Shown here one piece after another: positions 39,637-63,222 of a DNA stretch of 64,000 nucleotides. The stretch is from NCBI GenBank assembly GCA_963281255.1, contig OY725495.1, positions 1 to 64,000 of the forward strand, written 5' to 3'. The translations under genes and the position numbers were made by a program. Origin of the DNA: Aphrocallistes beatrix. Its lineage: Eukaryota > Porifera > Hexactinellida > Sceptrulophora > Aphrocallistidae. Position 1 is the first letter of the stretch. Every line of letters begins with the position of its first letter. Under the pieces are notes generated by a model. That model had not been told where the DNA came from and made no database searches. It was given only the letters and a program-made list of their open reading frames with translations.

Positions 39637-39824
39637 CAGTCGACTCCGCTTAATAGGGCCACTGTTTAATCGGGTCAGCCGCTTAATCGGGCCACTTTTG
39701 GCAGGACCGGAATAGCTCTCACACATAGAAGCTAATACAAAATATTTTCGGTTAATAGGGTCCTCCGCTTAATCGGGGCAAAATGTCCTCTGACCGATGT
39801 GGCCCTATTAAGCGGAGTCGACTG
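39637..39824. mobile_element. pogo/Tigger-like MITE, copy 2 only
   Basis: A 188-bp element with perfect terminal inverted repeats of at least 25 bp, beginning CAGTCGACTCCGCTTAATAG and ending in the reverse complement. It is flanked by TA (39635-39636 and 39825-39826), the target of the Tc1/mariner-pogo superfamily. Internal CCGCTTAATCGGG motifs repeat the end sequence. There is no coding capacity. Copy 1 has the intact empty site (GCACATATTATATT near 15330), so this is a filled/empty polymorphism. Confidence 0.85.
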
Positions 39825-40742
39825 TATTATATTTCACGTACCTGGAACATAAGCACTCTATCTGCCATCCTTCATGACGTAAAGTTGATGATGATATTAA
39901 CTTTTTCTTGTGGAAATTATCTCAATGTTTCCTCTCGGGACTCAATCTAAATGTACTGCATGTTAAACCCTATATAGTGTTGCATCTCCATTCGTTGCTA
40001 TATACTGCTTGTTCCCGCTTCATAGTGGTCCATATCAATTCGCAGGTATACTGCATGTTGACCTTCTATAGTGTTGTATTTCGATTCTTTGTTTTCTATT
40101 TAATTCATTTAGATTGAATCTTCATAGTACGTCCAATCTAATCTTTGACGCTTGATCTTTGAGTGCAAGTTTTTAATTCATTTAGTTTGGGTCCTCAGAG
40201 CACGCATTGAGATAATTTACAGTAGCATCATGCATCTATTTGCTACGAGCCTTGTATCTTCCTATGTGCTACGTTATACGGTTCTGTCGATCCCAGAGAT
40301 ATATTTGTTGATCAGTTAGCTCATTCCCGTTTAGTACAAACTGCAATAATTCCAAATTCCTCTCATAAATAATTGTTTGAATTGCTAATCGTATGGGGAA
40401 GCAGACTGCTGATGCCTTCCTCTTCACCTCACACGAAATGCGATTGCCCATTGTTCTATTTCGTAGCAACATAAGCACCAGATGTGTCATTGGGGCAGTT
40501 CTGAGCTAACTTCTCGAAATTTAGATTTCTGATTCAATTGATCATAAAGATAGTTAACTTCCATTCAAAGCTCAGATTAGACTTAATTAGACTTCATTGC
40601 TAATTTATGAAATGTTTGCTATAAACAGTTCCTTAAAACTATATTTTGTTTTTATAAATTGATTTTACATATTCTTTGCTTGAACATTTTATACCTCTCT
40701 TCTTGTCATTAACTCGAACTCTTTTTAGCTAGATTTAATCAT

Positions 40743-42323
40743 ATGCTTCATCACGTGCGATGCCAGCGATGTGTGCATCTCTTCATTCTTTTCCAATTAC
40801 TAAGTTCATATTCTATGGCTACACTCAACTTCGTGAATGCACCTTATAACTTCTCCATCCAAGAAAACGAGCCCATTGGAACTTTTTTAGGAAATATTTC
40901 TGCAATCTCTTCTGGCCTCAACCCTGTCACTTACCACATTGCTAATCAGTCGATTGAGCGCACTTTCAGCCTCGAACTGAATTCTGGAATACTTTGGACT
41001 AACTCTTCTCTAGATTTTGAGGCGCGGCCTTCCTATCAGTTGTCAATAGAGGCACGGGCTGGCACACAAAGTGCTTTCACTACTGTCATTGTTTCTGTGA
41101 GTTATTCTGGAACAAAAATTTTTCGCTTTTGTGCCAAACATTATTTGTTTATGGTTAGGTTATCGACATTGATGATGTCAGTCCTGTTTGTGAGAGGTTT
41201 TCTTTTACAATTTACGTCTCAGAAAACTCATCCTACTCCCCTCCAAACACTCTCCTCTCGCTGCCCTGCACAGACGTTGATTCAAGTGTTATTTACTATG
41301 ATTTCATTAGCGGGAACGGTAAGTACAAAGTTTTCTAGTGATACAAGTATTACCCAGATTCTACCACTTATATTCTCCTTAGATCAAATGAAATTTCAAA
41401 TTCTAAACTCTAGCTTCATTCTATTTGGGGCTTTGAACTACTCTGAAACATCTAATTACTCCATCTTAATTGCCGTTTCTGACAATTCCACTCCATCGCT
41501 GCATATTCGTGTCTTTGTGCAAGTGCTACCAAACTCTGATCTGCCCCCCGTATTCACACAGGATGGAAAATACAATCTCCAACTGTCAGAGGATGCTCCA
41601 ATTGGTCCCATCTATCAGGTATTTTAAACTTTTTACTAAAATCACAGGTTTCAATCAAATTAACCTTGCTTACTTCCCCAATAGATCGCCCTGACAAACG
41701 ACTATGCTGACTCCGCAGAAGTTATTGCCTACTCTATAGTGTCTGGAGACGGTTCCAGACATTTCTCAATCAATTCTTCCTCTGGCATTCTCTCCCTCCA
41801 CTCCAGCCTAGACCGCGAGAGCATTCCGCTCTACTCTCTCTTTATCTTGGCATTCGATCAGTCAGTCTACCCTCTCATGCTACGCACTGCCGTGGCTAAT
41901 GTTAACATTACTGTGTTGGATGTCAATGACAATGCACCAACATTCAACTCTGTCAACCTCTCTGCATTCATCTCGAAGGACTCCCCTCCCTCCACTCACG
42001 TCGTTACTCTTTCTTGCACTGACGCAGACAGTGGCAGCAACGGAACCATCGCCTCCTACTCGCTGGATTCCCCCTATTTCAGGATCGACTCTTTTCGAGG
42101 TGATGTCTACCTCAACGCATCTTTACCTGCCTTCTCGGCCCCTCAACTCAGTTTCCACTCCTCAGTTTCCTGCACTGATTCAGGGTCTCCACCTCTCTCG
42201 CGGCTAGACACATTGGTGATCTCGGTACGTCAGTCCAACCTCTATGCTCCAAACTTCACTGCCGTTTCTGCGACGTTTGATGTGCTGGAGAATATTTATC
42301 TTCCTGGAATGCCCTTATTCGAG
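40743..42323 (+). other. Cadherin exons 1-4 (signal peptide, EC1 to EC5), copy 2
   Basis: ATG 40743 begins MLHHVRCQRCVHLFILF, a basic then hydrophobic leader. A second in-frame ATG 24 codons later (MATLNF) would lose it, so I keep the first. Introns 1-3 are 62, 64 and 66 bp with phases 0, 1 and 0. EC1 has LDFE and DIDDVSP; EC2 has PCTDVD; EC3 has LDRE and DVNDNAP; EC4 has both cysteine motifs (SCTDADSG, SCTDSGSPP). The frame passes from EC5 PLFE into exon 5 VTATD. Confidence 0.9.
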
Positions 42324-45300
42324 GTTTGTTACTTAGAACTACGTACGGTAGAACCTCTAATCCGACATCGTTTTCTACCATAATTGGCGTTGGACGGTAG
42401 AAATTGACTGTATAATCCGACAGTTTTTTCGTTTCCCAAAGGGTGTCGGATTATGCAGCTTCGACTGTACATTATACTTTACGCAGTGTGTGTAATGCGT
42501 TGCGCTACCCTCTCACATAAACCCCACCCTGTAATTCATTATAGTGTCTTAGCCTCTTTCTATTCTCACTTTATATGTCATGTTATTGTGAACGTAATAT
42601 TACGACTACGCATTCCTTCCACCGCCATCTGTTCAGACATTTGCAAGGATTTATTTTGTGTTCATGGCTTCAAATTCTTTGTTTTGCGACCTGTAGGAGT
42701 TAAGATTTTCCGATCTCTTAGCAATTCTGCACGCAATTTATCCTCGGTTGGTTGGAAGCCACATTATATTGGCTCGAGATCGCCTTACAATTATCTAAGA
42801 CTATAAATTACTCCAATTTATCCTTTAATAACAATTATGTAATATTCAGTGGTCCAATGTGAAAGGATAATCTAGTGCACATGAATAAATTTGAAATGAT
42901 TTAACTTACACATGACTCAACGTTCCTTCTTATCCTCTCTCTATAAATGTATATCTTTATAAATTTAAGGATATAATCTATTTCGTACATTTCTAATCCT
43001 GACATTAATAGTTAACTGTATTATCACATCAAATATGTCGGCTGGCAAAAGAGTATCTTTCAAACCTAAATCAGCAGAAACTGTCAAAGTTCCTGATTTA
43101 ATAATCAACACTCACTCCTCCGGCTATGAAACGACACATTCTTCCAGTCCAATCGATCATCAAATGCAAGAACCACTCATCAAGCGTCCCCCGCCACCAG
43201 GGGATGAGCCACGCCCGTCAAATTGGAGGAGGAATTCGTCTGTGATAGGGAAATCTCTGCAATTCTGCTGCGCTGGATTAAAGCTGAATTCTTCTCAGGA
43301 AAGTTCCCCGGCAGAATCTCCCACAACACAGCCAAACGAAATCGAGAAGATGCGACAGGAGTTGAAGTTTCATTTCATGAATCCTTTCGAAAAGATGAAA
43401 TATAGAGAGCGACGGAGAATGCCTTGGAAGCTGATTTTTCAGATCCTCCAAGTCCTGGTCATCACTGTCCAGCTGTACACCTTCTCTCAGGCCAAATTCA
43501 GCGTCACTTCCTTCCTCTCGCAGAACAGCGCCACCTTCAAGCGCTACTTCATCAAAGACTACTCTTCGGACCCGGAAGACTACGCCATCTACACTGTGGA
43601 CGACCTTCAAGATTCTCTCAGCTTTGCGATAGGCCGCTACTACTGCATTCAGAACAAGAGCCTCGGCCCGTACGACTATTCCCTCCCGAACGGCTCTGTG
43701 CCGCTCATCAAGCTCTGTCTGAACAAGTACAAATCCGGAGCTATTTACTCTTTCAACCAATCCTACGACTTCGATTCTGAGACGGAAGACGTTTGCTACC
43801 AAATACCACAGAGTAATATATCGCAATCTTTGGCTAAGTATATCAACCACGACAACTTGGACAGTCTCATCAAGACGAGTCTAGTATTTTCTCTCAGCTC
43901 TGTTTATCTCAAGGCTTGGCCGACTCCTGACTGCGTGATTTTCTATATACAAATCCTATACGATCACTCTGATCACGACGGACTCGTGCCAGTAAGAGTG
44001 CACCACACTTACAACACCAAAGACTGCTTCAATCTGAGAATTGGTCGCACGGGGAATCAGCGCTTTGTCACTCCCAATCCTCTCAACCAATACGGCCTCT
44101 TCGACTCCCTCATCATCCTAATATGCGCTGTCACCAGCTTCCTCTGCCTGCGCTCTCTCCTGAGAACTCTGATGAAGGCTTTGCGCGTCAAGCGCTTCTT
44201 CGTCAAGCACTCCTCTCGCACGCTGACAGTTGGAGAGCTCTGGCCCATGTTTAATCTCTGGTTCATCAGTCTCCTATTTGGAAACATTTTCACTATCCTC
44301 GGGTCGATTTGGAAGATATTAATCGAGCACAAATTGCTTGAAACGGAACAATTCGACTGGTGCAGTCTGATGCTGGGAATTGGCATTTTGTTTGGTTGGT
44401 GCTCGATGCTTCGCTTCTTTTCGTACTTTGAAAAGTACAACATTTTACTGCTAACACTAAGACTCGCCATCCCCAACGTCATCCGATTCATAATCTGTAT
44501 TCTGATCGTCTACATCTCCTGCTGCCTCGTCGGCTGGGTGATTCTGGGTCCTTATCACTCGAAGTTCAGAGACTTCCTCACCACGAGCGAATGTCTCTTT
44601 TCCCTTCTCAACGGAGACGATATGTACAACACTTTCCAGGAGCTGCGACATGCTTCTGTCCCGATCCGAGTTTTCTGTGAGATCTATCTCTACGTCTTCA
44701 TCTCCCTCTTCATCTACGTCGTGCTCAGCCTCTTCATTTCCCTCATCTCGGAGACCTATGAGAACCTCAAGCATGGCGGGCGGATATTCTCTTACTGTCT
44801 GCTGGAGCAGTTCGCATACTGTAACGACGAAAGTCAGATGTACATCGGAGGGCAGCGCAGTGCATCCCCCGCCGGCCCCCACCCTCACCAACACTGTGGG
44901 ACTCAGCACCTGAACAACCTCGCACCTACTTCCTACCAATCTGGGAATATGATGGCATCCAACTCCTATCTTCCTGTGCCATCTGCCCATGCGAACATGG
45001 AGAGCGTGCACCTCAACAGTTACAGCTTCGTTAAGGAGTACCGCCCTGAGCCTCACCCCAAAGTCCTCTAGCATCCTACCCGCACTCTACATCCAATTTA
45101 TGAACGTACTTAGTTTTAACATTAATTTGGTGGACTCACCTTTGCAGTACTTTCTTATACTTGAATTGCATAGGCATGTGCACGTACTTGTATATGTTGT
45201 ATAGTTGTATAGCATTATTACTACCACGATGTGATATTTTGAATGGAAGAGTTACGTTTATTGTTATTCCAAAATTATAAACTGTTTTTATTCGTTGTGG

Positions 45301-48300
45301 GTACCTCGACGAACCTAACAATATAAAATTCTACGTGAGTATCATGGGGACCGATCTAAGTGGGGGAGATGCGAAATGTGACGCTATTTTATTGCTTAAT
45401 AACCTATTTTTCTTCAGGTAACGGCCACAGATTTGGATTCGGATTCCGAGGGGGACGTAGTCTATGCAGTGACAGGAGGAGATGATAGTAACGACTTCTT
45501 CTTTCCTGTCTCGTCCATCGGACACGTGCATACTTCTCTAACGCATTTCGATAGGGAATCTAGAGCTGAATACAAGTTTGAAGCCACAGCGACCGACAGA
45601 GCTCTGCAAGGATTCAGGAAATCCTCTGCGCTCCTCGTCACTGTGCTGGTGCGTGACGAGAACGACAACTCGCCTGTCTTCTCACAGCACAGCTATTTCA
45701 CTTCGATCCACGACAACAACACGATGGGTCTGCCTCTCCCTGCAGTCTCGTGCTCTGACTCTGACTCGGGAATGAACGGAAGAATCGAGTATTCTCTCAC
45801 GTTCGATCCCTTTCCTGTCCTCTCCATCGACTCTAGCACTGGAGCACTGCAGCTCAGCTCTGCTATCAGACTCGAGTCTGACTCCACTCGGATAATCACG
45901 TCCTACATCTTGTGTAGAGATGGCGGAGTCCCTCCAAGAAGTGACATTGCCTCCTACAACCTGCAGGTCGTTCCCGTTAACGAACACCCTCCAATGTTCC
46001 CGCAGGACAACTACACTGCAGACATCTTGCCTGAGGACAGCCCCCCCGAGACCTTCGTCATTCAAGTCACGGCTCTCGATCAGGATGCTTCCTCTGCGGG
46101 TCGCCAGCTGGAATACTCAATTCGTAGCTCGTTAGGATCCGATTTTTTCGCGATTGGCAGCAGCAGTGGGAACATCACAGTCAGTTCCCGTCTGAATGCC
46201 ACCCAGTTCCCGACGTACGAACTGATCGTGAAGGCCACTGGCGCCAAAAACTTGAGCGATGAGACCACTGTGTACATTCCCATCTTCAATGTCAATGAGG
46301 ACGCACCCGTCTTGCACCGAGTCTCGTTTATCAATCAGAACCAGACTGTGCAGGAGAACTCTCCCCCCGGCCTCCCTGTAGCGCGTATCCAATGCCTAGA
46401 CATGGATGATATCCTCCCTGACAAGATCTCGTATCGCTTGGATCCCAACTCTCTCATGACGCAGGAGTTCGTCGTAACCTCGGATGGACTGGTGACCACA
46501 GGTCCTGACCCCACTGACTGTGAGACGATGGATCGCTACGACATCGTCATTATCTGTTCTGACAACGAGTCTCCTCCTCGGACAGCGCAAGCCAGCATTC
46601 GCATCATGATTGGAGGAGTGAATGAAATAGCGCCTCATTTTGTTAATGGAGAAACTTTTATCTTTAGAGCTGTTGCAGAAAACGTTCCTTTATACACTGA
46701 AATTGTCAGAATAAATGCAGTTGACGAGGATTGTGGGTCTGATGGCGAAATCTTATCCTACAGGCTAACCAATGACCCTCTATACGACGACATTATCGGA
46801 CCTTGGTTTAATATTACGGATGGCGGTATGGTGTACACAATAGACTATCTGGATGGAGAACTTGTACCAAATAATATACTGATATTGACCTTGGAAGTGG
46901 AAGCGATTGATAACGGAAATCCGCCACTGACCTCTCGCGATCAAACAGAAGTAGGTGCCAGTGTAGTTTCCATAATTTCTGTGCTCATCATAAATATCAA
47001 TGACAAACCTCCAGAATTTAATGAAAGCAATCCCATTACAATAATAATCAACGAGAATACTTCTCCTAACATTCCAATCCACCAAGTTGAATGTACTGAT
47101 CCTGACAGAAAGGATGATGTGTTTATTGTTCCTAGAGGGAGCTCTGAGCCTTTCTCTGTTTCGAACGGAAACATTTCGGTGGCTTCTGGACATGTCATCG
47201 ACTACGAGATGTCCCAGCAACACACATTCTATCTCAGTTGCTCAGATTCTATTTTCACCACAGACATTCAAGTCAATGTTCTCGTGCGACCGCTCAATGA
47301 CAACCCAGTTCAGTTCCAGTCCAACTTCTACCAATTCAATCTGAGTCGTACCGCTACTCCCGGAGAGACGATCGGGGTTGCTGTCATCGTGGATGCAGAC
47401 ATCGATGAGTTGACTCTTCCTGTCGTAAGTGTTTTGAACTTCACAGGTCCCTTCAATCCTCTCACAGTAAACTCCGCCGGAGTCCTGACCCTCTCCTCTC
47501 TCATCTCGCCGAACCTGAACGATTCGTTCTATCTAGAGCTCCGAGTTGATGACGGGTTTTCCCGTGATAGCACTCTTGTCAAGATACAACTCGTTGAAGG
47601 AAACTTGAACTCGCCTGAGTTCTCTCAGGACCTGTACGTCGTAGGCCCTATCTCCGCTTCCGCAGGGGTGGATTCCTCGCTGTATAAGCTCATGTGCACG
47701 GACAGAGATTACGGATCGAATGGAGAGGTGGATTTCCGTATAACCCATTCGTTTCCTCAAGAAGACTTCTCTATCAGATCGGACGGAGTTCTGAGAGTGC
47801 TGAATCCTCTCAACGCGAGTCTCAACTCGGATTACAATCTGCTGGTCACTTGTTTCGATCACGGATCTCCTGTCAGATTCAACACTACAGTTGTGTCAGT
47901 TACTGTTTCCGGTGGAAATAACTGCCCACCCGTCTTCATTCTCACTGACACGTATTTTAACAGCATTTCTGAGGACGTACAATCCGGTGCGATGGTAGGT
48001 CAAGTGTTCACGACAGACTGCGACGTGGAAATGCACTCAAATCCTACTTACGTCACACTCTCACACCCCAGCCAGTTCTACATCGACCCTGTCGATGGAA
48101 AGATATTTGTCAAAGGGAACTTGGACCGAGAAACAGAAGAAGTGATAGACTTGCTTATCAGAGCTGACAACGATGACTTCGAACCGACCCACACATTCAG
48201 GATTACTCTGCTCGATGTGAATGACAACGCTCCGAGGTGCAGCCCTCGTGAATACTTCGTCCGGGTTGCAGAAAATGCGAGAGATGGAGAGTTCATTCTC

Positions 48301-51300
48301 ACTCTGGACTGCTCTGATCCAGACCTCGGTTTAAACAGCGAGTTGACCTTCTCACCACTCACCTCTCCCTCCCCATTCTCTCTTCTTGCGAACGGGTCCG
48401 TCTACCTAAACTCTGCCGCCCTCCTCAACGCCGCATTAGAGCACGAGTTCCGTTTGATGGTGCAGGACAGAGGCACTCCTCCTCTCAATTCTACCGCGAT
48501 AGTATATGTGTCAGTGGCTCCCGCCAATCTCTTCGCGCCTGAATTCCAAGGAAGTTCACAAAATCCTGGAATCGTGATTATTTCCGAGGTGACTCCTCTC
48601 GGTTCTCACCTCTTCACTTTCGTAGCCACTGACAATGATGTAGGATCGGCGGAGAGTTCAGTTCGTTACGCGATTGCTTCTGGGAATCTGGGGACCACCT
48701 TCCAGATACATCCGGAAGAGGGCAGACTGACACTAAACCTTCCTCCTGACTTCTCCAGGACTTCTCAGTACATTCTCAGCATCAGTGCTAGGGACCTCGC
48801 AGCTCTCAACCCCAAGACAGCCTACACCACAATCAGCATATACGTAACGACGGTGAACCGGTTTCTTCCGGCGTGTAGCGACCCTCAATATTCGCTGTTT
48901 GTAGAAGAGAGTCGTGTCGGACCTTTCTTGGCCCTGGAATGCTCAGACGGTGACGGCACTCCTGTTTTCTTCTCTTTGGATTCAGGAGATACGTCACTCT
49001 TCCAAATAAATAGCTCTTCTGGCTCTCTCTCCCTCATCTCCACACTCGACTTCGAGTCTACAGCGGTCCACAGCTTGGCAGTGCGGGTGTCAGACGGAGA
49101 AGCGCACGTCCTGGTCCCGATACAAGTCTTAGTAGCGCCAATCAACGAATTCCCTCCTCGCTTCCCCTCGGCTCGCTTTTCCGTGGAGATTGCTGAGGAC
49201 TCGTCAGTTCCTTTTGAGATAATACCTCTTACTGCTTCAGATTCCGATACAGATAACATCACCACGAAACACGGACAAGTTCAATATCAAATTATTGCTG
49301 GAAACGATGACGAAATGTTCACTATCGGAAATTCCAATGGAGTTCTGTATCTGGTGCAGATACTAGACTTTGAAACTATTTCCTTTTACAATCTGACCGT
49401 CATGGCTTCAGATCCTGACTTCTCTGACATCTCCACGGTTCAGATCTCAGTCCTCAACGTTAACGATGTTACTCCTTATTTTGGAGAAAGTCTCTACGTG
49501 TTCTCCATTAACACTTCTTACTCCACATCTTCCACGGTGGGCACCGTCAGGTGCTTCGATACAGACTTTTCTAATGCTCTAAATCGCTCAATCCTCTCCA
49601 TAGCAACTCCGAACGTTCCATTCTCTATTGACAGAGAGTCTGGCCTCCTTTCGCTCTCCCTCAACGCATCTCTCACCTCCCAGTCTCTTCACGACTTCAC
49701 TGTGTCGTGCTCGGATGGAAAACTGGTCGGATCCTCTCAGGTCCTCGTCTCAATCGAGGCAGATTCGGTAGAGTTGACTTTCGTGTCTGGAATATACCGA
49801 TTCTTAGTCAGTGAGTCCCTCCCCATTGGCAGGGAAATAGGTCAGGTCGCGATTGCGAACATCTCTGCTGCTCTCATCTCGTTCAGACTGTCGGACCTTT
49901 CCTCTCCTTTCAGCATCAACTCGACAGGAGCGATCGCTCTCTCTCGCTCTCTCGACTTCGAATCTCAGTCCTCCTACGCATTCTCTGTGGAGGCGTCGAC
50001 CGACTCTTTCAGCACAGTCTCTGCTGCCATCGTAATTGTGACAGTAACAGATTCGAATGACAACTCTCCCTACTTCATCACAGCCCCCATTTCCCTCTCA
50101 ATGGAAGAGTCCGCGCCGAAGGGGAGCGTCCTGTTGCAGATAACCTGTCAAGACGCCGATGCTGGCCAAAACGGTCAAACCTCTGTGAGGATCAGTGGAG
50201 GGAACGGAAATGGTTTCTTCAGCCTAACACCGAGTGGCAGTTTCCAACTTAACTCTAGCATTGACTACGAGTCTCTGTCTACGGATCCAACCATCCAATT
50301 AGAACTCACGTGTTCTGATGGAGGTTCTCCTCCTAACTCGGTCACTACCAATCTCACCTACTATGTCCTCCCAACCAACGAGCGCGGCCCTGTCTTCCAG
50401 AACCTTCCCTATCAGTTCCCAGTGCGAGAGAGCGCGCAGACTGGAGTGAGTCTGTTCAGAGTGCAGGCACACGATCCCGATTTGGGCGAGGACCACAATC
50501 TGATCTTCTTTGAGATTCTGCCCCCTGGGTCTGGCGGAAATCCGTTTCTCATAACTTCCAATGGAGATATCCTGCTGGCCAGCAGTCTGGACCACGAGTC
50601 GGTCGGCAGCTACTCGCTGGTCGTGAGGGCAGTGGATCGGGAGCGCCGAGACGCGGGCGAACCGAATCTTGACCGCTTCACTGACACTGCGAATATCGCT
50701 GTAACTGTGACGGACGTTAACGAGTTTAGTCCAGAGTTTTCTAGCTTGTTCTATCTGACTGAAATCGATTCAGGAGTTCTGCCCAACACTTTTGTGTACT
50801 CTGTTAATTGCACTGACAGAGATGAGGGCGCCCTTTTCTCTCCCATCTATGCTCTTTCCGGTCCTCTCTCTACCTCTTTCTCCATCCTCCCCTCCGGCCT
50901 TATTCTCACCAACGCCACCATTCTCCACCAGACGGCGTCCTCTTACCTCCTCACCGTATCCTGCGCAGACCAGGGGATCCCTGTACGCAGTGCTGAGACT
51001 AACCTCTTCATAAGCATCCGAGACCTCAACCTGCTCTGTCCCCAGTTCAGCCAGACCTCCTACAGTGTCCAGCTGTCAGAGTCTGTTCCCATCGGCACTT
51101 CCACCACACGACTGAACGCCAGCAGTCTTAGCGGGGCCAGTGACATCTCCTACAGTCTCCTTAACCCCGTGCTGCCGTTCCTCATCAACCAGAGCAGCGG
51201 AGAGGTGTCCACTGCTTCTCAGCTCGACTTTGAGTCAGACAGATTCTTCGCTCTACTCGTGCTTGCTACTGATACAAGTTCCAACACTTCCTGTAACAGC

Positions 51301-54300
51301 ACTGCCACGGTGCTGGTGGGGCTCTTCAACGTCAACGAACACTCTCCTCTCTTCTCTCAGTCCTCATTCTCCGCTCGAATCAGCGAGGGATTCACGGTGG
51401 GCAGGAACATCCTCCTGCTCTCTTGTTCCGACAGAGACGACCTAGCTGAGGGCACTGCCCCTCTTCTACGGATAGAGTCCGGAGATCCAGAAAATAAGTT
51501 CTCCATTCAAAGTCAGAATCTCGTCCTGATGTCTAGTCTTGACATAGAGTCCCAGCAGAACTACACACTGATGATCTCCTGCACTGATACCGGACCAGGC
51601 AGCCTCCTCTCCGCCTCCTCTCTGGTGTACCTCTCTCTCCTCTCGGCCAACGAGTTCGCGCCTCTCTTCGAGAACGACAGCTACCAAGTGTCAGTATCTG
51701 AAAGTGCTGCTGTCGACACTGAGATACTGGCGCTCGTCGCCACAGACAGAGATCAATTCGGGCACAACAGCATTTCCTATTCTATCCTCTCTGGCAACGA
51801 TGGATTCAGATTTCTGCTCAGATCGAATAAACTGATCGTGTCTGATCTCCTCGACTTCGAGACTTCTCCCACCTACCTCCTCAACATCAGCGCCTCAGAT
51901 AGCTCAGACCCGAGAGAGGCCCTTGTCTCCTTCTCGACTGTGCTCATACGACTGCTCGACGAGAATGACAATCCTCCGATTCTCCTTCCTCCGATCGCGT
52001 TCCTCTCCGTAGAGAACAGCACCACTGCAGGAACAGCTGTGTTGCAACTGAGCTGTACTGACGCAGACCTGTTTCAGAACGGCAGTCTCCTGCTGGACAT
52101 AGACTCAGGTAAGTGCGCAGGATCTGGATCTAGTGCGGTTCTGCACTGATGTATATTATGTCCACTCACTAGGAAACCTTGAGGGCAGTTTCGCGCTCAC
52201 TCGCGATGGAAAACTATTGGTAAACAAGCCCTTCAACTTAACGACCAACTCTCTCTACACACTCACCATCACATGTCGAGAGAACGCTACAGATCCCAAG
52301 CGAGACACGAGCACCGTGGTGGTGAGCGTAATAAGATCATCTGAAGAGCTCCAATTCCTGGACACGCCCTACTCCATCTCGATTGCTGACACCGCTCCAG
52401 TGGAAAGCACTGTCCTCTCCGTCTCTGCTTTGGATCCTGAGTCAGCGACGAGTGACCATCTACAGTTCTCCATATTCAGCCTGGAACAAGTCCCGTTCGT
52501 CGTAAACTCGAACTCTGGAAATGTTCTGACAGCGAAACCGCTGCTTTCGTACTCAGGACAAAGCTTCACTTTCCAAGTGCAAGTTACGGACAGTAATATG
52601 CCAACGAGGACCAAGTTCGAGCCTGTTTCGATCTTCATCAATCGCACCTCTAACTTGGCCCCTGCCTTCCAGAGAGATAACTTCTTCCTGAACGCATCGG
52701 AACTGTCGTCTCCGTCCACACAGTTAGCGATTCTCAACTGCTCCGATGGGGACAATGACCTTATCCGATACACCATTGAGGATGGAAATGAAAACGGTAC
52801 TTTTGCCATCTCGGAACAAACCGGGAGATTGGTGGTGGGCAGGTCTCTGGACTTCGAGTCTAGAGATTCCTACTCACTCACCGTCTCATGTCAGGACAAC
52901 GGAGTTCCTCCTCTCTCCGCCACCGCTGCTGTGCACATCAGCGTCACCGCCGAGAACGAATTCACTCCTCTGTTTCCGAGCGGAGGCTACCCGCCCGTCT
53001 CTCTGAACGAGGACGTCCTTCCTGGCGCAGAGCTCCTCGCGGTGAAAGCTGTTGACGCGGACTCTGGGTCTGACGGAGCGGTCAGCTACCAGATCATCGA
53101 AGGTTTGCCCTCGGAGGAATATCCTAGCTTGTAACTGAGTTTCATCATCCACTCTTTAGGTGACGTGAACAGCAATTTCGTTATTGGAAGAATAAGCGGG
53201 AGAATTCAGGTGTCGCAGCTCCTCGACTTCGAACAGAGAGCTACATTCCAACTGAGAGTAGAAGCCAGAGACTCTTCAGCTCTCAATCCTAGATCCAGCA
53301 GCGTCTTGCTCGACGTTCGGTTGGTGGATGTTAACGACAACTGTCCCCAGTTCTCGGGAGAGCCTTACTTCGCTCTTCTCCCTTCCTCCGCTGCCCCCGG
53401 CCACACAGTCGCTAGACTCGTGTGCTCGGACGCCGACTCCGGACAGCTGGGCCGAGTGAACTACTCTCTCGGAGGAGACCCGCAACTGCTCCAATACTTC
53501 CACGCAGATTCTGATGGAATAGTTTCCTTGATTCGCAATCTTCCCAGCGACTCTACTCAGGTCAGTTCAGTAATGAAGCATTGAACTCAGACGTGTTCGT
53601 ATATAATACTTGTACGTCTATCCAACAGGTCTACTCTCTTATCTCCATCTGCTCCGACAACGCTCCTTCTCCTTGCTCCGTCAGCTCTTCTCTAACCGTG
53701 ACTCAGTCCGATGGGAACACCTCCCCTCCCCTCTTCTCCCCCTCTTCCTCCTCTCTCTCACTCAGCGAGTCATTCCCACTCCTGACCCCGTTCTTCACTG
53801 CCAACGCCACAGACCCTGACTCAGGGACGAATGGACAAATTTCCTACTCCGTAGAATCTAGTGCTATGGCAATGTTCTCAGTAAATGCAGGTACACTCAC
53901 CAATTCATCCACTACGTCTTTGTAGTTTGAGCTGTTGTATTGTAGTCAATCTACTTGTTTTAACAGGGAGTGGAGAGGTCTTTTTATTGACACCTCTCGA
54001 CTTCGAGTTGTCTCGCTCTCACAACTTGACCATTCGAGCGACTGACGGTACCCCATTCAGTTCTAACCGGAAGTCCTCAGCCACCACCCTCCTTCTCCAA
54101 GTCACAAACGTCAATGACAATCGCCCTTTCTGCGGAGGACAGTCCTTCACTGCTTTCTTTACAGACACGGCCGCTGCTGGTTTTGAAGTTTTCAGTCTTA
54201 ACTGCTCCGATCCAGACACTGGTCCCGCTGGAATTAGCTTTGCGATAGTGCAAGGCGATGTGGACGGTATTTTTAATATTTCTAATATCGGAGTTCTAAA

Positions 54301-57300
54301 AATTGCCTCGACTAACCCAGTTCAGACCAACTCCTCCTACGCACTCAAGGTAGGATAGGCTTATTATCTGTGTTGTTCTTCATTAATCTAATCTTACTTC
54401 AGATAGAGGTATCGGACAATTTCGTTGGGGGACTAGTTCAGAGGACGAGTGTGTGCGTGCAGGTCTATCACGCCAGCAGCAATGACTTCTGTCCTCAGTT
54501 TTCTATGTCCGCCTTCTCCACCGAAGTGAGAGAGGACGCCGCTGTGGGGAGCACCCTCCTCTCAGTGATGGCTACGGACGAGGACAGAGGTCTGCAGGGA
54601 CTTGTCTCCTACGCCCTTACAGGTCAGATTGTCTCTTCTACTCTACTCATTCCTAAGAGTCATTAATCGTTGAGAACGCCTTTAGGTGGTGCTAGTTCTC
54701 CCCTGCAGTTCTCAGTCGTTCCATCGACAGGAGACATCATTCTCCTCTCCAGGCTAGACAGAGAGTCAGTGAGTCACCACTCCTTCTCGCTCCAGGCCTC
54801 TGATGGAGATGCTTCGAGTGCTTGTGTCAATCAAACCGTTGTTTCGATAAGAGTCACAGACGCCAACGACATAAGGCCCTGTCTACCTGAGCAGTTCTAC
54901 TCTCGAACCATCTCTCAGCGCTCTCCGATCAACTCTCTTATCTCATCGGCGCTAGCAATGGATGAAGATTTAGGAGCAAACGGCTCTGTTATCTATTCTC
55001 TCATTCCTATCGACTCCCCTTCTTCTTTTCAAATAGATCCAACTAACGGTAGCATATCCCTCGTAGAAGTGCTAACCGACTACCATCCTCGCACTCTCTA
55101 TCAGTACTTCATTCAGGCGGTGGATAGAGGTACCCCTGCCCTCTCCTGCTCTTCACACCTCTCCATCTACACCACTCAGCATAACACCTACCCTCCAGTC
55201 TTTCCGTCGCCTAGCTACAGCGTGTCGGTGTCAGAAGGAACGCCGCACCCTCACACCCTCCTCCAACTCAACGCAACTGACAGAGACAGCGAGTACGTCT
55301 CCTACCACATCGTCAGTGGGAATGAAGACTTGTTATTCTACGTGGACTCCGTGACAGGTGTACTGTCGTTACGGCAGAGACTAGACTTTGAGAACAGCCG
55401 CGAGCACCGTCTAGTGGTGGAGGCTAGAGATGTAGTGCTGCGTGAAGGGAATCCATTGGTTGATACAGCCGAAGTAGTTATCTCAGTCTCTAACGTTAAC
55501 GACAACTCTCCAAGGCTTGATAAGCAATATTACTCCGCGGTTGTTAACTCATCTGCTCCTGTCGGTACTCAGGTGTTAGAAGTGGTCTGCACAGACTTGG
55601 ACTTGGCACCTCATAACAGCACCATGCTCTCCATAGTGAGTGGAGACGCCAATGGACTGTTTGGCCTAGCACCGAATGGGTCTCTCTCTATTATCAAGAG
55701 TCTGAACACCCTCGCATATAGTCGAGTTGAGATGGCTGTCTCCTGTTCTGACGGTCAATGGACCGACAGTGCTATTGCAGTCGTGATCATAACGCCTCGC
55801 AATTTCACTGGGCCCGTTTTCTCGCGCGAGACTTATTCATGGAATATTCCAGAGCACTCATCGCTTGGCACTTCTTTCTCAGAAGTGAGTGCATCGCCAC
55901 CAAACACTTCCGCTGCAGTAGTCTTCAGTATTGAAAGCGGGAATGAGCTTGAGAGGTTTGGAATTGATCCACAGGAGGGCAGCCTATACGTGATAGATCG
56001 ACTAGATCGTGAGCTAGTGTCTGAACACCTACTCACTCTATCCGCGGTGAGTGAGGGAGTGACAGCTCTAGCATTGCTCCGCGTCATTCTAACTGACATC
56101 AATGAACATCGTCCCCTCATCTCCCTCCAATCCCAGATCTCTTATGTGTACACACACTCCCCTCCCGGAACCCTTATCACCTCCATCGCTTGCTCTGATG
56201 GAGACCAGGATAGCAATGCTGGCACGCGTGTCTCCATAGCAGCAGGAGATAGCGACAGCTTCTTCTCTATAACTCCTGGCGGAATTATAGCCCTCAGAAA
56301 GTCTCTGACTCCGAATTCAGTCCACACTCTGACCATTTCTTGTTCTGACTCAGGCGCCCCCTCACTCTCCGCCACTGCTCTTCTCACCATAGAGTCCGCA
56401 CAGCTCAACCGGTTCCGCCCTGAATTCGTGCACGCGGAGTTTGTGGTGGATGTGCTCGAAAACATCGCCGTAGCGTCCAAACTTGTCAATGTCACTGCGA
56501 TAGACTTGGACCAGGGATTACTCGGGTCTGTGACCTACGTCATAACCTCCGGCAATGAACTGAACCTATTTTCCATCGACCCGATCACTGCTCTCATTTC
56601 CTTGAATTCACAGCTAGACTTTGAGTCCACTCATTCTCACCGATTGACCGTGAGAGCTACAAATGGAGGCGACGGTCTGAATAGCATCAGGTCTTCCACG
56701 GCGTATGTCACTGTCAATGTGTACGACGTTAACGATAACGCGCCGGTATTCCAATATGTTCGTTACTCTGCACACGTCCCACTTAACGCCAGCATTGGCA
56801 GTGAGTTGGTACGTGCTGTCTGCACTGACGCAGACAGTTTAGAGAACGGAGAAGTATCTTATAGCTTTACAGCCAACTCCAGCCCTTTCTCGGTGTATAA
56901 CGGCTCCGTATCACTGGCTGAGCCTCTCTCCGCTTCCACTCCTGGCAGGATATCCCTGGTCCTGCAGTGCAGAGACCATGGTTCTCCTAATCTCGTCACG
57001 ACGGCCTACCTCGACGTGTTTGTGCGTAAAGATGCACTCTCGCCTCTGTTCTCCCAGTCTGTCTACCGAGCAGTCGCGTCTGAGTACGCTCAGGTGGGCT
57101 ATCAGTTGCCTGTCAATATTTCTGCTGAGGATATGGACGCGGGGAATAACGGAGTTGTGCTGTACGAGATTTTGCAATGTGAAGTTCCATGTCCATTTAG
57201 CATCCATCGCACGACAGGCGTAGTTAGTGTGATTGGCACTCTCGACTTCGAGTCCAGTTCTTCTCACCTCCTCTTCGTGCAGGCGGTGGATGACGGCACT

Positions 57301-60300
57301 TTCTCTCACGTGTCTGTTGCTACTCTCCGTGTAGACATTCTCAACGAGAACGATAACACGCCCAGGTTCAATCAGGATATATTTAGTGTCCGAGTCCCCG
57401 AGGATGCGCCAATCAACTCTGCTCTGGTGTCAGTCCAATGCACAGACCTAGACTCCGACCTTCCGACTTATAGCATAACCGATGGGCTGCTGGGGAGTGA
57501 ATTTACGGTTTCAGAGAGGGGCGTGCTCTTAGTTTCAGCTGAACTGGACTATGAGACCAGATCTTCCTATGTCCTAACTGTGCATTGCTTAGACTCAGTA
57601 TTTCCAGTTAGGACAGACTCCGCAGTCATTCATATCTCGATATCCAACTCGAATGAGTTCGCTCCTACATTCAACCAGTCTACTTACAACGTGTCCGCTT
57701 CCGAATCTCTACAGTTCGGTTCTCACGTATTCTCATTGAAAGCTGCTGACGGAGACGCGGGGTCGCTGGGGGAGATAACCTACAGCATAGTCGGGGGCAA
57801 CGTGCTGCAGACCTTCAGCATAGCGAGTACGGATGGAATGGTATTCCTTACAGGCACTCTCGACTATGAGAGAACGCCCTCCTACTTCCTCACCGTGTAC
57901 GCTACGGACGGAGGAGGACTGGTCGGGAGAGCGTACGTGTTCCTCTTTGTTGAGAATGTCAATGACAACGCACCGCAATTCACTCAATCCCTTTACTCTC
58001 GCACTCTATCCATCAGTGAGCCCGTGGGAAGGAACGTCGTGGAGGTGAGATGTTCCGATAGGGACGGTACTTCGGTTAGCTACGCGATTGAATCTGGTAA
58101 CACTGGGAGTTATTTCAACATCTCAGCACTGACAGGCTTAGTTGCCGTGTCTCGCGATCTGTCAGGCAGCAGTCTCGTAACAATCCTCACCTTGACCTGT
58201 TCCGATATCGACACTCACCCCCCCGCACGAGCAGTCGTCTCCTTCAACATTCTGCGAGATTCCAGCTGTCCCATTCAGTTCTCACAACCTCGTTACCAGT
58301 CACAGGTGCCAGAAGACGCTCCCCTTTCCCAGTCCGTCCTCACGCTGACAGTGACTGGCTCTTCTAGCGACATCTCCTACAGGCTACTCCCCACCAGTCT
58401 CCCCTTCTTCATCGACCCCGCAGGACTCCTCTCTCTCACAGCGTCATTGGATGCAGAGACACAGAGTCAATACACTTTCAATGTGGAGGCCGTTCCTAAC
58501 GATATTGCCTGTGCGGATCCGCCTCAAGTCAGTGTCACTATTCTAGTTGAAGACGTGAATGAATTTGCTCCGCTCATCTCCCCCTCAGTCCTCACCGTCC
58601 TCTTACAGGAGAACTCCGTCACGTCCAGTCCCATCGCTCAGTTCAGCTGCGAGGACCCGGACGCTTCCAACGGGACAGTCTTCTTCATCGGCTCCATCGA
58701 ATCCTCAGGGTCTGGATTAGAAATAAACCCTATAACCGGACAGGTCAGGCTACTGATGCAGCTTGACTATGAATCAGAGACGCTACACACGTTCACCATC
58801 AGGTGCACGGAGTCCGGACCCTCTCCCATGATAGGATCTGCAACGCTGCACGTCAGAGTCGGTCCAGAGAACGAGTTCCCGCCTCAGTTCCCCTTCCCCT
58901 CCTATCAGCTCAACGCATCCGAGTCCTTGCTCCCTGGTGCCTCTGTAGCCCGCATTGAGGCTTCAGATGGAGACAGCCCGCTGTCTGCTGACGGACAGCT
59001 CCAGTACTCCCTTCTCGGGACCAGTCTCTTCTCCGTCAGTTCTGGCGGAGACATCTCCGTGCGGAGTCTGCTGGACAGAGAGACGGAGCCGGTTCTCAAC
59101 TTCACGCTTCTAGCCACTGACGGAGGAAACTCCTCACTAACCGCGTCCGCTGCAGTGACTGTATCACTGCTGGATGTAAATGACAGCCCTCCTCAGTTCC
59201 ACCCCCTCACCTACTCCATCAGTCTGGACAGTTCACACCTCCTCTCAGACCCTGTGGCTAGCATCCGTTGCACAGACCCGGATCAAGGCGTTAATTCTCT
59301 GCTAGCTCTGTCTTTGCAGGGATCCAATCTTTCCTACGAACTTCACAACGTTACGGGGGGACAGGGGGAGACCAATGCGACCCTACTAGCTAGCGCCCCT
59401 CCTTCCGACGGCCTCACGAGCATTCAAGTTGTCTGTACCGACTCTGGAGTTCCTGCTCTCTCCTCCTCGGCGCAGATTAGCATCTTTGTAGCTTCAGATT
59501 GCGCCACGCCCTCCTTCCTACCCACTCACTACACTGTCACTCTTCCGGAGGATTTCGGTACGAATGCTATCCTCATCAACACCACTGCGACCTATGACGC
59601 CAGGTGTCCGCACCAGTTCCACATCTTGTCAGGAGCAGCGAACACCTTCGAGATACACGAGAGGCTGGGCTACATCTACACGATCAACTCGCTCGACTTT
59701 GAAGCGGTATCCTCATACCTCTTGACCTTATCCGTGGTCTCTCTCACCGCCACTGGAGCCAAGTCCTCCACTGCCACTGCTGCCGTATCTGTCAGTAACT
59801 CCAACGACAACCTCCCCGAACTGCGCCCTGCCAGGCTGACAATCACGCGTGCAGAAGACTCTCCCACCAATCAAGAGGTCGCTACCTTCTCCTGCACCGA
59901 CCTGGACCCAGGAGAGACCGTGACACTGAGCATTCAGTCCGGAGACGACCTCATCAACAGGTTTTCCATAAGTCAGCAAGGAGTGGTGAGTCTGCTCAAC
60001 TCCCTGGACTTTGAGGTCACTCGGGTCTACGACCTCGTGGTAACGTGCTCTGAGGCGGTCGCTGTCCCTCCTCGCACAGTCACAGCCCTGCTCACAGTGC
60101 TGGTGGCCGCAGTTAACGATCACGACCCTATGTTCTCTCCCTCCGCCTACTCCAGCTCACTGCCGGAGGACGCTTCTATCGGCACTACGGTGCTGACTCT
60201 GTCTGCATCAGATGGAGACTTCTCAGCTCTGCACAACAAGGTACCTATCCTACTTTGCTCATAATACATAATTATGCTTACAGTTACAGGCTCTTTTGAT

Positions 60301-63222
60301 GGAAATCTCTGTAGACTCTGTTCGCTCTATCAGGACCCAATTCCAATCTGTTCCGCGTGACGTCAGAGGGTAGCGTCATAAGCGCGGACCTCCTGGATGC
60401 TGAGGTCAACTCTCTGGGGCTGTACCAGTTCTCTGCGCTGGCGTTCAACGAAGCCGCGGGAGCTAACACAGCCACTGCTACCGTCTCCATCTCGCTCACA
60501 GACGTGAATGAGAGTCCGCCCGCTTGTGGAGGCGGACTTATTAACTTGGAGCTGCAACCAAGGTCCTACTCGAACGAGGTACAGCACATCCATTACTCTC
60601 TCTTGTACATATTCCATATGCACAGCTGATATCTCTGTTCTGTGTAGGCTGTAGGCGGTACGATTGTGTGTACAGACGCGGACATATCTATACCTGTATT
60701 CAGTGCCAGTCTCACGCCTGGAACTGCTAATGACGCAGCACTGCAGCTAGCATATAGCATCTCCGGCAGTTCTCTCTCGCTCGCTCTCACCGGCACCGTC
60801 GCTTACCCCGCACACGTCACGCCCAATCAGTACACACTGCGAGTGTCAGACGGAGGCTCCCCCGTCCTGTCGGCGGACACTCTCATTTATCTGAGAGTCA
60901 TCCCTCCTCCTGGCGCCCTCATCTTCTCTCCTAGCTCCGTCACTCGCGCCGTTCCAGAGAACTTCCCCATCAGCGACCTGCTGATAGACGTGAGTCCACT
61001 TCTCTTGGGCACGGATAGAGACAGTGCGGTCTTCTCTGCAACTTCGCCTCTCTCCATCAACTCGGCGGGAGAAGTCAGACTGGCGACCTCTCTGGACTAT
61101 GAATCCGTCCTCCAGCACTCAGTGCAAGTATCCGCATCAGTGGGGACAGAGGTAGCTAGCTTATCTCTCCTCATCCACGTGGAGGATGTGAATGACAACA
61201 GTCCTCAGTTTACTGAAGGTACAACTACTCAGTAACTGCGGTACTATCGTATTGACTGAGATCTCTTTTAGGAAACATCATTACGAGATCTGTCAGTGAG
61301 AGCACATCTCCACCTGCCACCATTCTCTTCCTACGAGCAGCCGATGCAGACTCAGGCCTCAATGGAGTGGTCACATTCTCTCTGGAGTCCAGCAGCTCTA
61401 CGTTCGGACTCTTCACTCTCAGCTCCTCAGGGGCCATCTCCTTGGTCGGGGCTCTAGACAGGGAGCACACGCCGAGCTACAGCCTGCAGGTACTTAGCTG
61501 GGAGCTATAAATAGCTGTAGACTGCAGTTCTTGCGATGACTCGACTAATCCTGCTTAGGTGCAAGCTTCAGATCGAGGCTCTCCTCCCAGATCCGCTGTT
61601 GCCGTGGTGATCATCCAAGTGACTGATGTCAACGACAATCCCCCTCGGTTCCAATCGGACACTCTCTCCCTCTTCATCTCACACACCCTCCAGATTGGGA
61701 CAGCATTTCACACCTTCCAAGTCTCAGACCCAGACCTCAATCCCGTGCTTTCTTTCTCCATCATAGGACCGTCATCATCTAGAGGTAACGCAGCTACCTA
61801 CGTTCCATTTCTCCGTGCGAGGCAGACGCTAACATTGCTTTATCTCACTAGAAGCGTTCGGGGTGAACTCAAATGGAGAGATGAGCCTCAGTGAAGACCT
61901 CATCAACATCCCCAGCCAGACGTTTGAGTTCGACGTAGAGGTGAGTGACCGGCTCTTCACAGACTCGATCAGTGTTCAGATCTCCGTCATCAACCTGAAT
62001 GCAGACGTGGAGCTGACTCTCAGAGAGAACTCTCCCATTGGGTCCATTGTCTGGGACGCCACGAGCTACGTCAGCGGGAACTACACGCCCTCTGCCTCTG
62101 CCACCTACGCTCTCTCGGTCGGGAACTTCGCAGGGAAGTTCGACATAGGTCTAAGCACGGGGCTACTCACGACGGCTGGTGATATCGACTATGAGGGAGA
62201 GTTCGTGTTCACATTCGTGATTCAAATCACCGACCCGGCTAACTCTGTCACTACAGCTCCCAGACTGCTCGTCTACTTGCTGGTTCTGGATGAGAACGAC
62301 AACGATCCCGTATTCAACCATTCTCTGTGAGTTTACGCTAATTACTAGTACCTAGCTTTGCTGATAATCGTTCACTACTACACTCTCCACAGCGCGCCCG
62401 TCCAGCTGTTGGAAGGACAGTACATACAACCGTACGAGCTGGCACGAGCCCTCGTGACGGACAGAGACTCAGGGGTCTACGCTCAGCTCAGCTTCCAGTT
62501 GGTGCACGCCAGCTCGGGGCGCGAGGCCACTGAGCTGCCGTTCCACTTCATATTCGACGGGAGGCTGTTCGCACAGGGCGAGGTGGATAGAGAGGCGTTC
62601 CCTGTGCTGGACTTGCTCGTTCTTGTTAGAGACGCGAGTAGCGAGCCGAGAAACGCCACGGCTCCCATTTCCATCTCCATCCTCGACGTGAATGACAATC
62701 CTCCCAGCTTCTTCAACCTCACTTCTCCCATCGACCTCACGAGCGACCGTCCGACAGGCGACAGCTTCTTCAGTTTCTTCCTCTCAGACCCGGACCAGGG
62801 ATCGAATGGCACTGTCGTTTTCAGCCTGGAGCAAGTGCGTATTGAGATTAGCACTAACAATCCGAGATGAAGGAATACTGATCTCCTCCTGTTCTAGACC
62901 TCCCCTGGTACCCCCCAATACTTCGACTCCACAGCTGTCAGCACTGACAATGGACTCAGAATCAGTCTCGTCGTGGCAGAGATTCTGCTGGGATTGCCAG
63001 AGGAGGTGTTCAACATAGAATTGAGGTTGACTGCGTCCGACCAGGGCTCTCCTCCTCTCAGCAGTTCCCGTGACGTCACCGTCTCCGTGGTAGCCGCAGA
63101 CCTGATGCCTCGCTTCCGCTCTGACTTCTACTGGATCGACGTGCACTTCTCTACCTCGGCGGGCTCCGAACTGCTGACTGTGGGGCTGGAACGGAGTTTG
63201 CCTACCATAGTCTTCTCTATAG
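40743..63222 (+). CDS. Giant cadherin, copy 2 (5' complete, 3' end beyond window)
   Basis: Eighteen in-frame exons: 40743-41096, 41159-41318, 41383-41618, 41685-42323, 45418-52108, 52173-53102, 53160-53560, 53629-53890, 53967-54349, 54403-54622, 54686-60240, 60315-60578, 60648-61218, 61272-61489, 61559-61784, 61852-62326, 62393-62834 and 62898-63222. Together they are 18,352 bp, or 6,117 residues, with no stop. A signal peptide is followed, by my count, by 58 complete EC repeats and a partial 59th. No EGF, laminin-G, membrane or catenin-binding region is seen, so the C-terminus lies beyond the window and the class (FAT-, Dachsous- or other) cannot be set. Repeats 1-52 alternate between canonical and cysteine-bearing types. 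Human FAT1 has 34 EC repeats. It presumably acts as a very long calcium-dependent cell-surface adhesion protein. Confidence 0.93.
42346..42467. mobile_element. pogo/Tigger-like MITE in intron 4, copy 2
   Basis: A 122-bp counterpart of 17868-17991, with TA flanks and the same inner arm ATAATCCGACA / TGTCGGATTAT; two bases are missing near the left end (CCTCTAATCC against CCTCCATAATCC). Confidence 0.65.
43035..45071 (+). CDS. TRPML (mucolipin) cation channel, intronless, nested, copy 2
   Basis: 678 residues from ATG 43035 to TAG, on the same strand as the host cadherin. The basic linker RERRR before TM1, the luminal loop between TM1 and TM2, the pore motif LLNGDDMYNTF and the TM6 end ETYENLKH all match copy 1. 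Nucleotide differences from copy 1 are scattered (for example near 43158, 43340, 43912 and 44032) yet I find no amino-acid change, which fits a functional gene under purifying selection. TATAAA lies about 90 bp upstream. Being intronless among intron-containing neighbours suggests origin by retroposition, which I infer but cannot prove. Confidence 0.95.
   Translation: MSAGKRVSFKPKSAETVKVPDLIINTHSSGYETTHSSSPIDHQMQEPLIKRPPPPGDEPRPSNWRRNSSVIGKSLQFCCAGLKLNSSQESSPAESPTTQPNEIEKMRQELKFHFMNPFEKMKYRERRRMPWKLIFQILQVLVITVQLYTFSQAKFSVTSFLSQNSATFKRYFIKDYSSDPEDYAIYTVDDLQDSLSFAIGRYYCIQNKSLGPYDYSLPNGSVPLIKLCLNKYKSGAIYSFNQSYDFDSETEDVCYQIPQSNISQSLAKYINHDNLDSLIKTSLVFSLSSVYLKAWPTPDCVIFYIQILYDHSDHDGLVPVRVHHTYNTKDCFNLRIGRTGNQRFVTPNPLNQYGLFDSLIILICAVTSFLCLRSLLRTLMKALRVKRFFVKHSSRTLTVGELWPMFNLWFISLLFGNIFTILGSIWKILIEHKLLETEQFDWCSLMLGIGILFGWCSMLRFFSYFEKYNILLLTLRLAIPNVIRFIICILIVYISCCLVGWVILGPYHSKFRDFLTTSECLFSLLNGDDMYNTFQELRHASVPIRVFCEIYLYVFISLFIYVVLSLFISLISETYENLKHGGRIFSYCLLEQFAYCNDESQMYIGGQRSASPAGPHPHQHCGTQHLNNLAPTSYQSGNMMASNSYLPVPSAHANMESVHLNSYSFVKEYRPEPHPKVL
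45418..52108 (+). other. Cadherin exon 5 (6,691 bp, EC5 to EC26), copy 2
   Basis: A single uninterrupted exon encoding the second half of EC5 through the first half of EC26, about 21 repeats. It starts after TTTTTCTTCAG (phase 0) and ends GACTCAG|GTAAGT (phase 1). Same length as in copy 1. Even repeats carry C-S/T-D-x-D and mostly a second C-x-D; odd repeats carry LDFE/LDRE and NDN/NE linkers. Confidence 0.93.
52173..54622 (+). other. Cadherin exons 6-10 (EC26 to EC33), copy 2
   Basis: Five exons (930, 401, 262, 383 and 220 bp) separated by introns of 57, 68, 76 and 53 bp. Splice phases alternate 1, 0, 1, 0, 1. Intron positions recur within the EC fold: phase 1 after a Y-S-I-x-x-G-type turn (EG|D, AG|S, TG|G) and phase 0 just before the F-strand (TQ|V, LK|I). 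Confidence 0.9.
54686..60240 (+). other. Cadherin exon 11 (5,555 bp, EC33 to EC51), copy 2 only
   Basis: Second giant exon, about 18 repeats without an intron. The acceptor is GCCTTTAG (phase 1) and the donor AACAAG|GTACCT (phase 0). The next exon is joined at CTCTGTAG|ACTCTG (60315), which restores the EC51 frame as HNK|TLFALSGPNSNLFRV; nearer AG dinucleotides lead to stops. Confidence 0.92.
60315..63222 (+). other. Cadherin exons 12-18 (EC51 to partial EC59), copy 2
   Basis: Seven exons of 218-571 bp with introns of 69, 53, 69, 67, 66 and 63 bp. Phases are 0, 1, 0, 1, 2, 0 and, at the last donor (ATAG|GTGAGT at 63223), 1. From EC53 on the repeats lose the strict odd/even cysteine alternation. 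The last exon ends in EC59 at the recurrent phase-1 position (VFSI-G), so more exons must follow. Confidence 0.88.

Follow-up and report, generated by a model that had tools for sequence, protein, structure and literature searches.

A giant cadherin of the sponge Aphrocallistes beatrix with cysteines in every second extracellular repeat

How stiffness, hinge and load are shared along a giant adhesion filament is the question raised by a cadherin gene near the start of contig OY725495.1 (assembly GCA_963281255.1) of the hexactinellid sponge Aphrocallistes beatrix. Cadherin stiffness is commonly attributed to calcium at the joints between extracellular cadherin (EC) repeats, and this protein offers a natural experiment on such sharing. 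The window analysed is the whole stretch of 64,000 nucleotides that opens the contig (C9 of a 28-contig, 100.5 Mb genome assembly). Over EC1-52 conventional odd-numbered repeats alternate with cysteine-bearing even-numbered ones, and the protein is probably a membrane-anchored filament whose unit is an EC pair, with one core disulfide per even repeat, a calcium-rigid joint within each pair and hinge-like joints between pairs.

The gene model was built by three-frame translation and splice-site joining, the sites being picked, without transcripts, for their consensus score, their frame and their fit to the EC consensus; exons past position 64,000 were read from the continuation of the contig. 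The gene comprises 20 exons at 40743-65933 of the forward strand, the last ~1.9 kb lying beyond the window, and its two giant exons (5 and 11) are each a single open frame. The product has 6370 residues and, by profile alignment of all repeats, 59 ECs, which are preceded by a hydrophobic N-terminus (signal-peptide-like by eye, and probably a signal peptide) and followed by a juxtamembrane region of ~120 residues with its own cysteine pair at residues 6257 and 6272, a single hydrophobic membrane helix around residue 6293 (mean hydropathy 3.87 over 19 residues) and a cytoplasmic tail of 52 residues. A preliminary description of this DNA had placed the cadherin at 43142-60578; that interval does hold cadherin, but the gene and its EC1-EC52 stretch (40845-60902) extend beyond it on both sides, and its first ~1.9 kb (43142-45071) is instead a separate mucolipin-like gene inside an intron.

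In the profile alignment the B-strand cysteine falls in one column and is present in 25 of the 26 even repeats, EC34 being the exception, and in none of the 26 odd ones (Fisher p = 1e-13); the F-strand cysteine, also confined to one column, is present in 20/26 even and 0/26 odd repeats (p = 4e-9). Odd repeats mostly have alanine at these positions (21/26 at B and 23/26 at F), and EC53-59, nearest the membrane, have no cysteine. The [LIFV]DxE motif is found in 22/26 odd versus 8/26 even repeats, and an exact NDN linker follows 12/26 odd repeats versus a single even one (EC10). Chance as the source of the alternation is ruled out by the Fisher probability, and misalignment of the cysteines by their each occupying an equivalent column. 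All the by-eye counts of the preliminary description were thereby reproduced, and the two-repeat alternation that it had proposed is borne out over EC1-52.

The B-strand cysteine does not always have the same partner. Five even repeats (EC2, 14, 16, 32 and 52) have the B cysteine without the F cysteine, and all five carry a cysteine at the start of the A strand, replacing the usual aromatic of the linker "PxF"; this A-start cysteine occurs in 0/20 repeats with both B and F cysteines, a match with a chance probability of 1.9e-5 within the gene. Over this locus and the two described below it is present in 14/14 B-only versus 0/24 B+F repeats (Fisher 1e-10), a count assigned by reading cysteine tables rather than by script, in which the cysteine of EC6 at the C7 locus is without a preceding proline, and from which are omitted EC34 of the window cadherin (neither B nor F cysteine), EC15 at C18 (F only, no A-start) and EC10 at C7 (A-start, F column unaligned). 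Of the B-F disulfide earlier proposed for the even repeats, a probable intradomain disulfide thus survives, while uniform pairing does not, since five repeats use the A-start position in place of F and EC34 has A-start and G-strand cysteines. In the predicted structure of EC16, of the A-B type, Cys 1616 and Cys 1638 each lie within a two-residue beta segment.

The remaining cysteines also tend to occur in pairs: EC23, 30, 33 and 45 have one in the linker and one in the FG/G strand, EC13 and EC49 one in the linker and one in the BC loop, and EC41 a local CxxxC pair. With linker cysteines assigned to the following repeat, 30/33 cysteine-bearing repeats of the protein hold an even number, and the three repeats with an odd number of cysteines compare with 17.8 expected, a value as low being reached in 0/200,000 simulations that scattered the 24 cysteines outside the B and F columns at random over 52 repeats. 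The exceptions are EC32 and the pair EC8 and EC9, whose odd cysteines face each other across one joint and probably form an interdomain disulfide; the EC8 cysteine is the x of TDCE, both acidic residues being retained, so that this is no plain swap of a calcium ligand for cysteine. Because partners switch and cysteine number is so regularly even, we infer disulfides, for which this is strong, if indirect, evidence.

Calcium motifs alternate as well. The motif names follow the excerpted text of PMC5120219, and each joint was given a score of up to 5, the upper repeat contributing XEX, DRE/LDxE and the linker, and the lower one DXD and XDX. Odd-to-even joints average 4.42/5 versus 2.20/5 for even-to-odd joints (p = 8e-7), all five motifs are present at 16/26 versus 1/25 joints, and the [DN]xN[DE] linker follows 21/26 odd versus 1/26 even repeats; the alternating joints of the preliminary description are thus recovered, in motif score, as calcium-complete and calcium-poor. 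The B and F cysteines stand two residues before DXD and XDX, at the top of the even repeat, and are therefore at the calcium-rich end of that domain. The earlier idea that the B-F disulfide may substitute for calcium rigidity needs correcting: the bridge would lie at the well-equipped odd-to-even joint, not at the base of the even repeat. Candidates for a disulfide in place of calcium are the other cysteine pairs at some even-to-odd joints. Additional pairs touch 6/25 even-to-odd versus 1/26 odd-to-even joints (p = 0.05), and calcium scores at those six are below those of the remaining 19 (one-sided p = 0.03), both being weak, post hoc contrasts.

Further cadherin loci in this genome were sought by a family search that scored 150 of 510 candidates and yielded 17 loci, then two more. 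The 17 loci gave 249 EC hits in which the B and F columns were both aligned; 15 of these loci have one B and one F cysteine in total and no pair, which rules out such cysteines as a general property of the cadherins of this genome; the two added loci, in the strand and frames encoding EC repeats, show no alternation. A minus-strand fragment of 76 residues (L034), with one B-column cysteine, looks spurious. The alternation does recur at two loci on other contigs, C7 and C18, each read as one large open frame with further exon hits omitted and with partial repeats set aside (the first of C7, the first and last of C18). B cysteines occupy 9/10 alternate positions versus 0/10 others at C18 and 5/5 versus 0/4 at C7, and the partner switch is repeated: the A-start cysteine is present in B-only repeats (6/6 at C18, 3/3 at C7) and absent from those with B and F (0/3 and 0/1). 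From EC5 on, C18 has a four-repeat super-period in which A-B repeats alternate with cysteine-rich ones containing B, F, an LDxE-site cysteine and two more internal ones, EC15 being without two of these. The LDxE-site cysteine (column 61; column 63 in EC7) is followed by a BC-loop cysteine in the next repeat in EC7/8, 11/12, 15/16 and 19/20; with EC8/9 of the window gene the two co-occur 5/5, the four cases at C18 not being independent. Calcium polarity at C18 is as in the window gene: among ten conventional and ten cysteine-type repeats, respectively, the base E is found in 9 and 3, DxE in 8 and 3, DXD in 7 and 10, and XDX in 9 and 8.

On the explanation favoured here, the conventional odd repeat would supply the base calcium ligands (XEX, LDxE, DxN[DE]) and the even repeat the intact top ligands (DXD, XDX), the latter domain being held immediately beneath them by a single core disulfide, B-F or A-start-B. 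The joint within a pair would be calcium-rigid, most joints between pairs, having no full calcium site, would act as hinges, and some of these may be tied by the extra disulfides. Outside the cell the whole would make a long filament in which rigid two-domain rods are joined by hinges, and disulfides would keep the even domains folded under load despite the lack of a calcium clamp at their lower ends. More tentatively, it is possible that the protein represents an undescribed giant-cadherin subfamily, a partly calcium-independent mechanical filament in which alternate joints are clamped by calcium, alternate domains contain a switchable core disulfide, either B-F or A-B, and further disulfides, one of them between neighbouring domains, replace calcium at several calcium-poor joints.

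A number of observations weigh against this explanation, and are taken here together with the alternatives. The alternation might be a passive relic of duplication of a two-domain unit, its cysteines assisting folding only, with no mechanical role. Outside the motif columns the repeats are ~20% identical, same-parity repeats being slightly more alike than those of different parity (0.2051 vs 0.1970, a weak difference of 0.008; 8/5000 permutations) and masked identity being 0.222 at lag 2 vs 0.205 at lag 1, as favours a relic. Leave-one-out classification of parity from residues outside the motifs is also weak, succeeding for 37/52 repeats, with 36 as the highest value among 300 shuffles. The two classes are intermingled on a tree of 81 repeats (24 changes, with 35/300 shuffles giving that few or fewer) and likewise on one of the window cadherin alone (73/300), and a classifier trained on the window gene fails on C18 and C7 (16/29, p = 0.24). 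A shared ancestral two-repeat unit, across genes, is no more than plausible from these sequences. Retention of nearly every B cysteine at such low identity elsewhere, together with replacement of every lost F cysteine by an A-start one, nevertheless points to one disulfide having been actively maintained in each even repeat, and a relic alone leaves the calcium polarity unexplained, so that a merely passive origin is rather unlikely. The B-F/A-B switch, kept while the repeats drifted, is an unusually clear case in which selection has apparently acted on the presence of a disulfide and not on the identity of given residues.

The cysteine pairs might alternatively stabilise domains while the between-unit joints are calcium-bound or stiffened otherwise, so that there are no alternating hinges. 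Calcium sites were read from motifs only, and absence of a motif is not equal to measured absence of calcium; 6/25 even-to-odd joints score 4 and one scores 5/5; odd repeats retain DXD in 18/26 and XDX in 17/26 cases; and a laxer linker pattern, N[DE]..P, passes 21/26 odd but also 10/26 even repeats, the linker contrast thus being partly pattern-dependent. Set against these are the loss of [DN]xN[DE] after 25 of the 26 even repeats, of XEX from 15 and of LDxE from 18, and the precedent of PCDH15 EC9-10, where, in the excerpts of PMC5120219, a solved linker with replaced motifs is calcium-free and bent by ~90 degrees. Between-unit joints of this kind are judged less likely than alternating hinges.

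It is far less credible that parallel cadherin strands are cross-linked through the cysteines, by disulfides between molecules or by bound metal. The odd cysteine of EC32 (near 54152-54489), residue 3370 in the G strand, is the only EC cysteine without an evident partner, EC41 has its CxxxC, and odd cysteine numbers occur in 8/15 cysteine-bearing repeats of C18 and 1/5 of C7, so that the even-number rule fails at C18 unless cross-joint pairs are assumed; the even numbers in the window protein, the strict within-domain partner switching and the prevalence of alanine at the B and F positions of odd repeats fit intradomain pairs. A point against the favoured explanation itself is that the link between cysteines and the calcium-rich end is not general, since polarity at C7 looks reversed, although numbers are small: cysteine-type repeats there have base E in 4/5, DxE in 4/5, DXD in 2/5 and XDX in 1/5, and conventional ones 2/4, 1/4, 4/4 and 4/4. 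An artefact of assembly or gene model, which might be suspected from the 200-N gap, satellite DNA and near-identical truncated copy adjoining the gene and from splice sites chosen by score, is hardly to be entertained given gapless agreement of the two copies over exon 5, the single open frames of both giant exons and recurrence of the pattern on other contigs.

The truncated copy (copy 1) is 98-99% identical to 35152-52732 (copy 2) over two main blocks and 95-97% in two short ones, and over exon 5 the copies differ by 26 synonymous and 21 nonsynonymous changes (pN/pS 0.26). Each is preceded by the same 43-bp satellite. Given this satellite, the high identity over the main blocks and the cut at the N gap, copy 1 is probably the other haplotype, left uncollapsed and set in line during scaffolding; true tandem duplication of the gene was set behind this simpler reading. 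The satellite arrays occupy 1-11309, from the contig start, and 28456-35151, with units 99% matching and strongly C-over-G on this strand. A frame matching the nested mucolipin-like gene lies at ~18528-20594 in copy 1. The second nested gene matches PF01490 (amino-acid transporter) below cut-off, at E 7.6e-5 over its first 178 residues. Coordinates are collected in Table 1.

Table 1. Features of the window, its continuation and the two other alternating loci
Feature	Position	Strand	Remarks
Copy 1	11310-28255	+	Opening part of the same cadherin, with its 5' flank and the nested mucolipin frame; ends at 200-N gap inside a cadherin exon
Exons 1-4	40743-41096, 41159-41318, 41383-41618, 41685-42323	+	Probable signal peptide, EC1-EC4, start of EC5; GT-AG junctions keep the EC frame
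Mucolipin (TRPML)-like gene	43035-45071	+	Single open frame; Pfam MCLN_ECD E 5.5e-26; within cadherin intron 4 (42324-45417)
Exon 5	45418-52108	+	Remainder of EC5 to part of EC26; open frame 45403-52146, junctions, EC profile
Exons 6-10	52173-53102, 53160-53560, 53629-53890, 53967-54349, 54403-54622	+	Remainder of EC26 to part of EC33
Exon 11	54686-60240	+	Remainder of EC33 to part of EC51; open frame, junctions, EC profile
Exons 12-14	60315-60578, 60648-61218, 61272-61489	+	Begin with remainder of EC51
Exons 15-18	61559-61784, 61852-62326, 62393-62834, 62898-63222	+	End within EC59
Exons 19-20	65109-65580, 65645-65933 (contig)	+	Juxtamembrane region, membrane helix, tail; outside window
EC1-EC52	40845-60902	+	Zone of strict alternation (odd conventional, even cysteine-bearing); EC profile
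EC8-EC9	46345-46953	+	Third EC8 cysteine within LDxE site (TDCE), sole EC9 cysteine in BC loop; facing ends of the joint
EC16	48889-49152	+	Even repeat of A-B class; Cys 1616 shortly before it, in the linker, Cys 1638 where strand B ends
EC18	49495-49755	+	Even repeat of B-F class; Cys 1842 where strand B ends, Cys 1894 within strand F
EC53 to part of EC59	60948-63222	+	Membrane-proximal, without cysteine; EC profile
Transporter-like nested gene	63465-65012	+	Runs past window end; in penultimate cadherin intron
C18 paralog (L030/L025)	C18:3490001-3502000	-	2353-residue frame, 22 ECs
C7 paralog (L024/L028)	C7:1729001-1740000	-	1040-residue frame, 10 ECs

Tandem repeats with the EC fold, calcium motifs at the joints between them and a membrane anchor place the protein in the cadherin superfamily, of which it is a new structural variant with replicated switching of cysteine partners, a somewhat stronger finding than the preliminary description gave. 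The repeats are of the EC kind (Pfam PF00028), and the best solved fold match is CELSR1 EC4-7, whose domains, among the matches listed, are without cysteine at the B and F columns, unlike the giant cadherin. It is not a classical cadherin, as no catenin-binding cytoplasmic domain was found in the 52-residue tail by a Pfam scan of the last 666 residues. Fat cadherins have EGF and LamG domains adjoining the membrane; only Cadherin scored above cut-off in those 666 residues, and EGF, LamG and GPS were not found in the two end pieces of the protein that were scanned with Pfam. Dachsous and cadherin-23 have a conserved cytoplasmic or membrane-adjacent domain; in a PDB sequence search of the juxtamembrane region and tail nothing scored below E 0.28. 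EC1 matches Cadherin_FAT4_N weakly and below cut-off (25.3 vs 35 bits). Very many ECs and one membrane helix characterize Fat, Dachsous and cadherin-23 and are shared by the giant cadherin, which differs from them in its cysteine alternation, its 59 ECs, its short tail and the lack of EGF and LamG in the scanned end pieces. Immunoglobulin (Ig)-fold domains have a canonical B-F disulfide, to which the core B-F bridge proposed here would be analogous; however, the profiles say cadherin, one class of pairs is A-B, and no Ig model was reported in the two end pieces (Pfam reports Cadherin), the middle repeats being assigned by EC profile only. In the prokaryote collection one bacterial cadherin relative was found (L032, from an Ectothiorhodospiraceae metagenome-assembled genome), without cysteine at the B and F columns; its cadherin-like repeats are followed, by eye, by a leucine-rich-repeat-like region. 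A search of the viral collection gave no relatives. In the sponge genome itself, family searches gave 5 TGF-beta and 19 homeodomain matches, in keeping with an animal, and one for Wnt gave an uninformative negative.

No description of the alternating-cysteine pattern was found among the matches listed in the open-access literature, and a term search within PMC5968619, PMC4265756 and PMC6820919 gave no mention of cysteine or disulfide in any of them; the alternation is easily looked for in other early-branching animals. Loss of calcium motifs with bending is described, in the excerpts of PMC5120219 and PMC8325961, at particular joints such as PCDH15 EC9-10, Drosophila N-cadherin EC2-3 and, as cited there, those of Fat/Dachsous; such calcium-free linkers are isolated joints, whereas in the giant cadherin nearly every second joint over 52 repeats is affected. 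Intradomain disulfides likewise have solved or described counterparts: in CDHR5 EC1 the C5-C73 disulfide joins strands A and F, with a similar one in PCDH15 EC1 (PMC8691648, in excerpt), and PCDH24 EC2 has a solved F-G disulfide. The F-strand cysteine of PCDH15 EC1 is in a V-x-V-x-C position matching that of the giant cadherin, although its profile placement is weak (4.6 bits). The disulfides of PCDH15, CDHR5 and PCDH24 are in single domains near the tip, while the cysteine pairs of the giant cadherin, B-F and A-B, recur in every second repeat.
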